21,765 bases of DNA from a virus: positions 1-21,765 of the IMG/VR virus record IMGVR_UViG_3300046009_003312, one strand, 5' to 3'. The number at the start of each line of letters is the position of its first letter. Position 1 is the first letter of the stretch. The notes below the pieces were generated by a model. The model did not search any database, was not told where the DNA came from, and was given only the letters and a program-made list of their open reading frames with translations. Made by a program: the position numbers and the translations under genes. This document shows positions 2,383-4,387 of this stretch, in pieces.

Positions 2383-3264
2383 TTAAAAAGGTAAATTTGA
2401 TTTCTTTGGGTTTCGCATATCTCTTAATGGATTAACTCCGTAAAGTTCAAAGCCTAAACCACTGTTCCAATCGCATAAAAGTTGCTCGCCAATTCCCGTT
2501 ATTTTTCCTCCCGTTTCCGTATCCTTTACTTTTTCAATCGAAATCATTGTTTTATACTTCATTTGTTCGTGTTTTATTAGTCGGTGAATTACTAACATAT
2601 CGTCGCATCTATTTAGAAAAGCCTTACCTCCTTCAATATGGTCTTTTAATGGGGGTTTTAGGTGTCCTTTCCATTCGCCTTCCGTGTATAGATTTCCGCT
2701 TCGCCCGCTTTCCGTGTTTGGATGCGTGTTAATGTAAAGCGTTATTCCCGTTTTATTGACAAACTCCCGTGCTTTATTCATAAAAGTATAATTGCCTTCG
2801 TAACTCATTTCTCGGTCTAACCCCGTAAAAGGGTCTATTAACGCTACATCGCATTCGCTTTGCTTAAATACATCCAAAAGTTCCAACGGCTTGTAAAGTT
2901 TAGAATTATCGACGAAAATAAAAAATTGCTCTAAGTAGGTAAGGTAGCTTTGTATTTGGTTATTAGTTAAGTTCTTGAATGGTTCGCCTGCGTAAAGTTG
3001 TATTAAATCCCTTAGAACTTGCCCCTTTTGATTTTCCCCCGACCATAGGCAAAATTTAAGTCCGTGTTTTAATGCAAGACAAAGAAAATACCAATTTATC
3101 CAATAAGTTTTACCGACGTTATCGTGTCCCAAAATTATGTTTACTTGCTTGCGTTTAAACCTTAAAAAGTTATCCAATACGCAATCAATACCTAATCCTG
3201 CTTTTATCTTACCCGCTTTTAAGTCAAGTAAGTATTGGATGGAATCGCCTTGTTTAGTCAGCAT
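2383..3264 (-). CDS. RecA-fold replicative helicase/ATPase (DnaB/RepA-like)
   Basis: This is a single-domain RecA-fold ATPase, probably the phage replicative helicase. Walker A is GHDNVGKT (residues 46-53). Walker B is VALIDPF (140-146). A NTH motif (179-181, LYINTHP) matches the sensor/H-motif of DnaB-type helicases. A C-terminal strand pair, IEKVKDTETGG, corresponds to the DnaB segment near the arginine finger. At 293 aa it lacks the N-terminal primase-binding domain of cellular DnaB and is closer in size to RepA-like hexameric helicases. It starts 11 bp inside the replisome-organiser gene, which would be its natural partner (initiator or loader). Asp-Asn in the P-loop is an unusual but tolerated variant. 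Confidence 0.83.
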   Translation of the reverse strand: MLTKQGDSIQYLLDLKAGKIKAGLGIDCVLDNFLRFKRKQVNIILGHDNVGKTYWINWYFLCLALKHGLKFCLWSGENQKGQVLRDLIQLYAGEPFKNLTNNQIQSYLTYLEQFFIFVDNSKLYKPLELLDVFKQSECDVALIDPFTGLDREMSYEGNYTFMNKAREFVNKTGITLYINTHPNTESGRSGNLYTEGEWKGHLKPPLKDHIEGGKAFLNRCDDMLVIHRLIKHEQMKYKTMISIEKVKDTETGGKITGIGEQLLCDWNSGLGFELYGVNPLRDMRNPKKSNLPF

Positions 3265-3883
3265 TTGAATAATCTTTAGTGTCTATGTAATTTAACATTT
3301 TTTGTACGTGGTTATACTGCAATTGTTCCAAAGATAATTCTTGTTCTTCCTTCTTTATCCAATCCGACTTAAAACTAATCCAAGAACGTTCTACGCAAGT
3401 TTGTAAAATTAGGTTTTTATCTTGTCCGTTTTTTTCTACTTGGCTAATAAAAGAGTTAAATGCTGTTTTGGTGTTTACAGCTTTCTTTTGTTTTCTTACT
3501 TGCAACCATTCTTTAACCAACTCTTTATCGAACCCGTATTTAATTAAAGATTCATAAAAATTAAATTTATCATTTACATTATCATTTACATTATCATTTA
3601 CATTGCCTTCGGTTTTGCTTCGGGTTTGCTTATCTTTTGCTTCGGATTTGCTTTCAGTTTGTTTGGTTTTGGGTTTGCTCCCGTTTATAAATTTCTTGTA
3701 ATTAGCTTCGATTTGTGGCGCAATTAAAGTAAAAATAGTTTTACTAATTCCGTTCAATTCAACGTACTTTCCATTTAACCCTAACTCATAAACTGCATTC
3801 CAAACCTCCGCCTGGTTCGTCTTTTGTAGTTCCTTAATCGCTTCAAAGAAACTGCGGTAAATAATCATAGAATCCCTTTCCAT
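3254..3883 (-). CDS. Replisome organiser / replication initiation protein (DUF6291-like)
   Basis: The N-terminal domain (about residues 8-68, YRSFFEAIKEL ... NYKKFINGSK) resembles the DUF6291 family found in Bacteroidota phages and elements. A low-complexity Lys/Thr/Ser/Glu linker (70-93) and three NVND repeats follow. The C-terminal helical domain (about 107-175) looks like the DnaD/DnaT-type ends of helicase loaders. The layout of winged-helix-like head, repeat linker and helical tail is typical of phage replisome organisers, and the next gene is the helicase. The ATG at 3883 is preferred over an in-frame ATG at 3868 because it gives the length of N-terminus I expect for the family. Expression is probably governed by the structured leader at 3902-4005. 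Confidence 0.75.
   Translation of the reverse strand: MERDSMIIYRSFFEAIKELQKTNQAEVWNAVYELGLNGKYVELNGISKTIFTLIAPQIEANYKKFINGSKPKTKQTESKSEAKDKQTRSKTEGNVNDNVNDNVNDKFNFYESLIKYGFDKELVKEWLQVRKQKKAVNTKTAFNSFISQVEKNGQDKNLILQTCVERSWISFKSDWIKKEEQELSLEQLQYNHVQKMLNYIDTKDYSNAD
3569..3604 (-). repeat. Three perfect 12-bp tandem repeats in the replisome-organiser linker
   Basis: The plus-strand unit ATCATTTACATT occurs three times in a row with no mismatch. It encodes the NVND repeats that join the two domains of the replisome organiser. A 12-bp unit keeps the reading frame whatever the copy number, so linker length could vary by slippage without breaking the gene. Confidence 0.95.
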
Positions 3884-3901: not shown

Positions 3902-3953
3902 AAAAAAAGCCCTTAAAATCCCGTGCATCCTACCTCACGTTCATTTAAGAGCC
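3902..3953 (-). terminator. Terminator-like hairpin in the leader of the replication operon
   Basis: On the minus strand GGCTCTTAAA (3953-3944) pairs with TTTAAGGGCT (3917-3908), giving 10 bp with two G-U wobbles. The stem is extended inward after a small interior loop by CGTG (3939-3936) with CACG (3925-3922). Seven T residues follow directly (3908-3902). It lies only about 20 bp before the ATG at 3883, inside the predicted leader, so it is either the end of the upstream small-gene operon or an attenuator. Confidence 0.7.
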
Positions 3954-3987
3954 TTAATAAGTTCATAAGCGCTTATAATGTAGGATG
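3926..3987 (-). promoter_or_regulatory. Structured leader: 8-bp inverted repeat, palindrome and alternative hairpin
   Basis: CATCCTAC (minus 3987-3980) is perfectly complementary to GTAGGATG (minus 3933-3926). The first lies at the very start of the predicted transcript and the second is the loop of the terminator hairpin. Between them are the 12-bp perfect palindrome ATAAGCGCTTAT (3965-3976) and TTAAG-GCT-CTTAA (3957-3945), a small hairpin that would use up the 5' arm of the terminator. These pairings cross or compete, as expected of an attenuator or pseudoknot. A DNA-level role such as an origin or operator is equally open. Confidence 0.55.
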
Positions 3988-3997
3988 AGCGCAAGTA

Positions 3998-4005
3998 CAA
4001 ATATA
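3998..4005 (-). promoter_or_regulatory. Probable promoter -7 element of the replication operon
   Basis: The minus strand reads TATATTTG, an exact match to TAnnTTTG, just past the stop codon of the DnaA-like gene. No TTG is found at the expected -33 distance, so the promoter would be weak or activator-dependent. Initiation near 3992 would give a leader of about 110 nt to the ATG at 3883. Confidence 0.45.
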
Positions 4006-4009
4006 ACTA

Positions 4010-4387
4010 TTATTCTTTTAAATTGTACTCATTTCGTAAAATTCTTCGTTGAATTTTTTCTAACCTTCTTACCGTGGTGCATTCAAGAATTTCGGAAATT
4101 AGGTCTTCAATATTTCTTACAACGGGGTTGCTTTCTAATTCCTCGCGTATTTCGGCAACGTCTGCTAAATAATATTTGTCTTCTATTTCTTCGTAATATT
4201 TTGCGTTTCGAACGTTGTGTAATACGGTAGCGTGGTTCATTTTAAACATCCTTGCGATTCTTGTAACGCTTAATCCGTGTTTGCTTAGTCGGCTCATTAA
4301 AAACGCTCTTTGATGCACTAAATATTGATTTCTGCAACGTCTACGTAGGTTGTATTTTATTATTAAATGTTCGGCTTGTTCTATCAT
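4010..4387 (-). CDS. DnaA domain IV-like helix-turn-helix protein, 125 aa
   Basis: Residues about 38-65 (HGLSVTRIARMFKMNHATVLHNVR) match the DNA-binding signature of DnaA domain IV, in which the recognition helix reads x-H-(S/T)-T-V-L-H. There is no ATPase domain. The N-terminus is a basic helical region (residues 1-37) and the C-terminal 60 residues are acidic, then basic, and helical. It is therefore probably a stand-alone DNA-binding protein for the phage origin or its early promoters, possibly mimicking or redirecting host DnaA. It overlaps the preceding 60-aa gene by 4 bp (ATGA) and ends 5 bp before the -7 element of the next promoter. Confidence 0.7.
   Translation of the reverse strand: MIEQAEHLIIKYNLRRRCRNQYLVHQRAFLMSRLSKHGLSVTRIARMFKMNHATVLHNVRNAKYYEEIEDKYYLADVAEIREELESNPVVRNIEDLISEILECTTVRRLEKIQRRILRNEYNLKE

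Follow-up and report, generated by a model that had tools for sequence, protein, structure and literature searches.

The stretch of DNA analysed here, called the window throughout, is a linear 21.8-kb IMG/VR record (21,765 nucleotides) that carries portal and tail genes, NinG and replication genes, nearly all of them on the minus strand. Between the gene for a 125-aa DnaA domain IV-like protein and that for a 209-aa replisome organiser lies an element that occupies positions 4005-3884 of the minus strand (Table 1). The replisome organiser matches Pfam PF19808 (6.4e-11) as well as PHROG 6451 (1.3e-22) and PHROG 678 (7.3e-16), while the Bac_DnaA_C match of the upstream neighbour (9.4e-6) falls under Pfam's cut-off. 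All of the sequence features that the initial annotation had listed for this region are indeed present on the minus strand, namely the promoter element TATATTTG, the segments CATCCTAC and GTAGGATG, the palindrome ATAAGCGCTTAT, the TTAAG/CTTAA pair, and a terminator stem with seven T residues.

Table 1. Features of the element and its two flanking genes in the window
Feature	Positions	Strand	Sequence and remarks
125-aa DnaA domain IV-like helix-turn-helix protein	4010..4387	(-)	Upstream neighbour of the element
-7 promoter box	3998..4005	(-)	TATATTTG; Bacteroidota type, consensus TAnnTTTG
Hairpin P1	3969..3992	(-)	GCGCT (3992-3988) / AGCGC (3973-3969), loop CATCCTACATTATA; contains the core of the 12-bp palindrome
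Segment A	3980..3987	(-)	CATCCTAC; in the P1 loop; first strand of the kissing/pseudoknot helix, 8 pairs with A'
Palindrome	3965..3976	(-)	ATAAGCGCTTAT; 12 bp, from sequence
Linker	3954..3960	(-)	TTATTAA; single-stranded, before P2; TTATTA invariant and last A almost so in the family-1 alignment (A1)
P2 5' arm	3944..3953	(-)	GGCTCTTAAA; terminator stem, in the minimum-energy structure
P3	3922..3939	(-)	CGTG (3939-3936) / CACG (3925-3922), 10-nt loop AGGTAGGATG; 4-bp inner stem within P2
Segment A'	3926..3933	(-)	GTAGGATG; complement of A, in the P3 loop after AG; from sequence and covariation
P2 3' arm	3908..3917	(-)	TTTAAGGGCT; pairs with the P2 5' arm, P2 being 10-12 bp
U-run	3902..3908	(-)	7 T, terminator tail after P2; T5-T9 retained in family-1 relatives
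209-aa replisome organiser	3254..3883	(-)	Gene that the element would gate; DUF6291 N-terminus, primosomal / O-like C-terminus

The promoter box agrees with the Bacteroidota -7 consensus given in PMC7366714 and is retained among relatives; no good -33 TTTG box was found in the window copy. Judged from the position of this box, transcription would start near 3993-3990. The sequence ATTATA separates segment A from the 3' arm of P1, TGAA separates the 5' arm of P2 from P3, and GGAT separates P3 from the 3' arm of P2. The inner stem P3 (CGTG/CACG), which was missing from the initial list, carries A' in its 10-nt loop, and the 3' end of A' is 43 nt from the ATG at 3883. With a GC-rich stem directly followed by a U-run, P2 and its seven T residues fit the layout of an intrinsic terminator. 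The minimum-energy fold of the window leader predicted by ViennaRNA consists of P1, P2 and P3 (-23.0 kcal/mol, z = -2.0), and the A/A' duplex is predicted at -10.4 kcal/mol in the window and at -9 to -16 kcal/mol overall. When the 100-nt leader was subjected to dinucleotide shuffling, 1 of 20000 shuffles yielded an 8-nt A/A' match in a stem of similar score with a T-run.

Relatives of the window element (family 1) were gathered by scans with the two flanking proteins and later with the RNA pattern, which led to about 80 contigs with a single copy per contig. The sequences of A and A' change from relative to relative and continue to match, as in CATCCTAC/GTAGGATG, CCTTCGAC/GTCGAAGG, GGTCTCAC/GTGAGACC, GGTTCGAC/GTCGAACC, CGTCTAAC/GTTAGACG and CTCTCAC/GTGAGAG. 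Across 24 distinct family-1 sequences, the 26 proposed pairs of P1, A/A', P2 and P3 are 97.1% paired, and two-sided changes occur in 18 of the 26, compared to 12.5 in shuffles and 2-5 in slid controls. The number of two-sided cells is 134 (42 in shuffles, 5-13 in slid controls), and the covariation score is 0.625 (0.209 in shuffles, below 0.09 in slid controls). Each helix contributes in these 24 relatives: P1 with 5 pairs (97.5% of cells paired, two-sided changes in 4), A/A' with 8 (96.9%, changes in 5), P2 with 9 counted (95.8%, changes in 6) and P3 with 4 (100%, changes in 3). The complementarity of the terminator-loop segment to the 5' segment, pointed out in the initial annotation, is thereby confirmed as eight pairs, five of them with two-sided changes, and relatives that keep the flanking genes show the compensatory changes that had been proposed as a test, in P1, P2 and P3 as well as in A/A'.

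Other parts of the first description had to be redrawn. The 12-bp palindrome is present, but not as an element in its own right: P1, the hairpin that displays A in its loop, has the palindrome core AGCGC as its 3' arm, and in relatives P1 has other sequences such as GGTTC/GAACC and GGCTT/AAGCC. The palindrome was also considered as a repressor operator, and this was rejected because in the family-1 alignment its sequence is peculiar to the window copy and amounts to an arm of P1. The structures had been said to cross or exclude one another. A pseudoknot is indeed present, but P1, A/A', P2 and P3 are mutually compatible and together form one kissing-loop pseudoknot. The supposedly exclusive TTAAG/CTTAA hairpin, a candidate anti-terminator, was dropped: its predicted stability is -0.1 kcal/mol in the window and ranges from 0 to -4.2 kcal/mol, and it is absent in 6 of the 24 relatives and near zero in most others.

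The initial annotation had left open a choice between a conditional terminator or pseudoknotted RNA and a replication origin. The covariation upholds the first of these. It is extremely improbable that the structure is a DNA element at the module boundary, whether an origin or a protein operator, despite its place next to replication genes and its wealth of inverted repeats. Sense-strand wobbles comprise 108 G.U cells and 3 A.C cells, and since neither a constraint on the DNA nor one on the antisense strand would produce such a preference for G.U, the sense-strand RNA is what folds. Taken with the promoter and an orientation that never changes, this bias argues that the transcript is the selected object; moreover, the structure always lies between promoter and ATG, and the palindrome sequence is not conserved. 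GC skew, suggested earlier as a check on the origin idea, does not change at the element. The direct repeats and AT-rich region of an iteron-type origin are likewise not at the element and fall inside the downstream gene. Within the replisome-organiser gene, 3601-3679 holds six direct repeats of 11 bp (CTTCGGTTTTG-like) and 3567-3604 about three AT-rich repeats of 12 bp (TTATCATTTACA), the two kinds spanning 3561-3679; one relative (L022) has both kinds and two (L034, L024) have the 12-bp kind. A period of 11 bp does not keep the reading frame and therefore points to a DNA function, and to judge from these sequences the repeats at 3561-3679 are likely an iteron origin of replication and a better origin candidate than the leader. 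The phage lambda O gene contains iterons inside it, which the repeats within the replisome-organiser gene resemble.

A second family of leaders (family 2), unlike family 1 in sequence, precedes DUF6291 and other replication genes and follows a common plan, with a 19-pair P2, a side hairpin P4 and a 9-pair A/A'. In 30 distinct copies, its 32 pairs are paired in 99.5% of cells, with two-sided changes in 15 pairs and A/A' 100% paired; all 75 distinct copies keep 9 of 9 A/A' pairs and show 13 versions of A among them. The U-tract is weak and interrupted (TATTTAGTTT), so that termination is less certain in this family, while P2 reaches to about 5 nt from the ATG and includes pairing of AAAU with AUUU. 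These properties, along with the placement of A at or near the RNA 5' end, are what one would expect if the leader controlled translation or mRNA stability, with a pseudoknot by the start codon that blocks ribosomes or shields the 5' end for as long as no protein displaces it, on the model of T4 gene 32 autoregulation. We regard this explanation as unlikely, though worth keeping in view, because family 1 and several unrelated loci display the intrinsic-terminator layout, with a GC-rich stem, 5-9 unbroken T and about 20 nt from the U-run to the ATG.

The view that no leader peptide is apparent holds for family 1, where the short window ORF MNLLRLLNEREVGCTGF, which overlaps the terminator, is not retained by the aligned relatives. 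The picture in family 2 is mixed. An ATGAAA follows A in all 75 leaders, and most encode MKTFLNPTITALP-like peptides ending CCATAG or CCATAA (L046, L053, L185 and others), several of which are out of frame or shortened. A leader peptide specific to family 2 is possible.

To follow the architecture apart from sequence, we used a detector that specifies only the plan: a promoter box, an A segment no more than 28 nt away, its complement A' enclosed in a stem-loop, and a T-run. It found 82 matches in 1.36 Mb of fetched loci and 0-1 in shuffled loci. Because loci L102-L162 and L184-L303 were retrieved with the RNA pattern itself, their counts cannot serve as an independent measure of frequency. Of the 38 distinct matches, 22 come from the window or from loci retrieved with a protein query rather than the RNA pattern. 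The T-runs range from T4 to T9, and the matches include loci without evident mutual sequence similarity (L041, L044, L065, L075, L078, L091 and L096). Three cultured phages carry one element each: Polaribacter phage P12002L (A/A' GGTCGTAG/CTACGACC), Flavobacterium phage 11b (CGGGCAGG/CCTGCCCG) and Flavobacterium phage FCL-2 (CATCCAC/GTGGATG; element at 37474-37595 of NC_027125), and other FCL-2 and FCOV records, from phages of Flavobacterium columnare, are identical to FCL-2 at the element. P12002L (HTH_36/DnaD_N) and FCL-2 (Phg_2220_C) have replication initiators of other families immediately after the element. No match was obtained with the detector in phages 6H and P12024L or in 40 kb of phi38:1, and a blast search of cultured phages with the DNA of the element returned nothing but FCL-2 relatives and one partial metagenomic match. 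In bacterial genomes, the family-1 DNA pattern gave 13 matches to genome contigs, none with the element, and the single match of model R1 in 396 Flavobacteriales genomes lies within a phosphate-transporter permease-like gene and is false. Model R2 had no match in 396 Flavobacteriales and 395 Bacteroidota genomes; the same search recovers viral records. These large scans applied strict filters, which weak copies could escape.

The genes that follow the leader vary, with 24 clusters in one set and 15 in another, and they encode replication proteins and small unknown proteins rather than metabolic functions, which offers no hint of a ligand such as a metabolite riboswitch would bind. In four loci (L002, L004, L016 and L021) the upstream gene and promoter are near-identical and the first genes wholly different, with the changeover directly past the U-run; the leader is a hot spot for module exchange in these loci. 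A small protein of 55-75 aa is a frequent first gene past the leader in both RNA families (L190, L195, L008, L117, L133, L147, L189, L242 and others). Its predicted fold is beta-beta-beta-beta-alpha (AlphaFold pLDDT 84), with repeat III of Pur-alpha as the top PDB match (E 0.35, TM 0.58, not significant), and the members scanned gave no Pfam match above cut-off. The variety of downstream genes makes it unlikely that the downstream product is the switch signal. The DnaA-like neighbour was rejected as a constant RNA partner, being missing at many copies and replaced by different upstream genes in FCL-2, 11b and family 2, and its frequent absence makes it an unlikely signal as well.

Inconstant downstream genes would be compatible, too, with a small RNA linked to its promoter and moving together with the module. 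The RNA would then act in trans, as a product of about 95 nt with its own promoter and terminator, which do bracket a compact pseudoknotted RNA, and the downstream gene would be read through incidentally. This is improbable. A same-strand ATG lies within 45 nt of the element in 82 of 82 detector matches, with start codons 5-45 nt downstream, and a start codon always so close behind the element makes a stand-alone small RNA less likely. Furthermore, A and A' vary freely while matching each other, and neither could be matched to a conserved target.

Comparison with described RNAs yielded several partial likenesses. Rfam 15 at gathering score finds nothing in the window and one unrelated tRNA in 15 related loci, and at E up to 2 in 7 loci it gives chance-level matches alone. 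The sole weak match is the riboswitch candidate trpB motif RF04312 (23.5 bits, E 0.4, far short of its gathering score of 59), which resembles the element in having two hairpins, the second terminator-like; it occurs in Firmicutes and Fusobacteria upstream of amino-acid genes (PMC11109978). HK022 putRNA is a phage RNA at the start of an early transcript that affects termination in cis (PMC9378689). Unlike the element, whose terminator-type stem belongs to it and lies directly before the gene, put acts on RNA polymerase and suppresses distant terminators; no sequence relation between the two would be expected. Neither in Rfam nor in the literature searched was there an RNA switch for Bacteroidota phage replication genes, and no published description of the element was found in the openly accessible papers searched. 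A search of that literature for RNA-seq of these phages likewise returned none. The mRNA of T4 gene 32 has a 5' pseudoknot that is bound by the gene's own product in autoregulation. The likeness to the element lies in a pseudoknot at the 5' end of the message for a phage DNA-replication gene, but here one leader plan precedes unrelated genes, which argues against regulation by the downstream product.

A functional parallel was weighed with the attenuators of the plasmids pT181 and pIP501, whose rep mRNA leader likewise holds an intrinsic terminator and has 5' sequences that pair with or around it, and whose loop sequences can be swapped for orthogonal versions (PMC3753616). The window, P12002L and FCL-2 each have a replication initiator whose leader contains a terminator-type structure. 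These attenuators answer an antisense RNA from the opposite strand, whereas here the pairing is within one RNA, and a pT181-type system was rejected because the defining antisense promoter is absent: none lies opposite the leader in the window, and one was seen in 0 of 74 family-2 loci and in 4 of 48 other loci. Over the leader plus the first 150 nt of the gene, TAnnTTTG boxes on the antisense strand occur less often than shuffled sequence would give (0 of 74 versus 8.9, and 4 of 48 versus 7.9), as if antisense transcription were selected against.

In a variant of such control, terminated leaders made by many phage genomes would bind nascent ones through A/A' and so tune replication to copy number. 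It would work like pT181-type control at the same place, and the many versions of A/A' (13 in family 2) are what identity tags would have. Given the scarcity of antisense promoters, below that of shuffled sequence, we consider it very improbable. Four contigs (L052, L196, L048 and G773) carry two family-2 leaders each, one before a large helicase-like gene and the second before a replication or small-protein gene. Their A/A' sequences differ in 4 of 4 cases, but this was set aside as proof of orthogonality, since chance would produce it about half the time (expectation about 0.55). The broader idea of a superclass of Bacteroidota phage RNA switches, made up of several unrelated families with a freely exchangeable, self-complementary tag that gates replication genes and whose pairing in trans serves as a copy-number or identity sensor for replication, is quite doubtful.

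The observed structure, covariation, strand, position and distribution of the element instead point to a cis-acting conditional terminator or attenuator with a kissing pseudoknot, which lies in the 5' leader of the replication-operon mRNA and, on balance, probably gates that operon. In the proposed course of events, RNA polymerase would start at the TATATTTG promoter and make P1 with A, then the 5' arm of P2, and then A'. Segment A, at or near the RNA 5' end, would form a kissing or pseudoknot helix of 8-9 bp with A' enclosed by P2; this pairing could precede emergence of the 3' arm of P2, after which P2 would close into a pseudoknot before the U-run. When truncated forms of the window RNA were folded with pseudoknots excluded, A:A' was the most favourable helix at 80-85 nt, while P1, P2 and P3 formed from 90 nt, and by this modelling A:A' could form shortly before the terminator can close. 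P2 would terminate transcription or, in family 2, block the start codon. The interval from P2 to the ATG is too short to hold a promoter, so that every replisome-organiser transcript must pass P2, and the balance of P2 closure would set replication-gene expression. We suggest that the switch is conditional, being set by a phage or host factor or by folding kinetics.

Little is known of transcription control in phages of Bacteroidota. The leader RNA in front of replication genes in many Bacteroidota viruses is probably a built-in gate that decides their expression. Because this strongly covarying RNA class is common in viral contigs and also occurs in the cultured phages FCL-2, FCOV, P12002L and 11b, its function is directly testable. 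Matched A/A' tags would supply a collection of orthogonal terminators ready for use in Bacteroidota, and if the element is a gate on replication, it would reveal how the onset of genome replication is timed in these phages.
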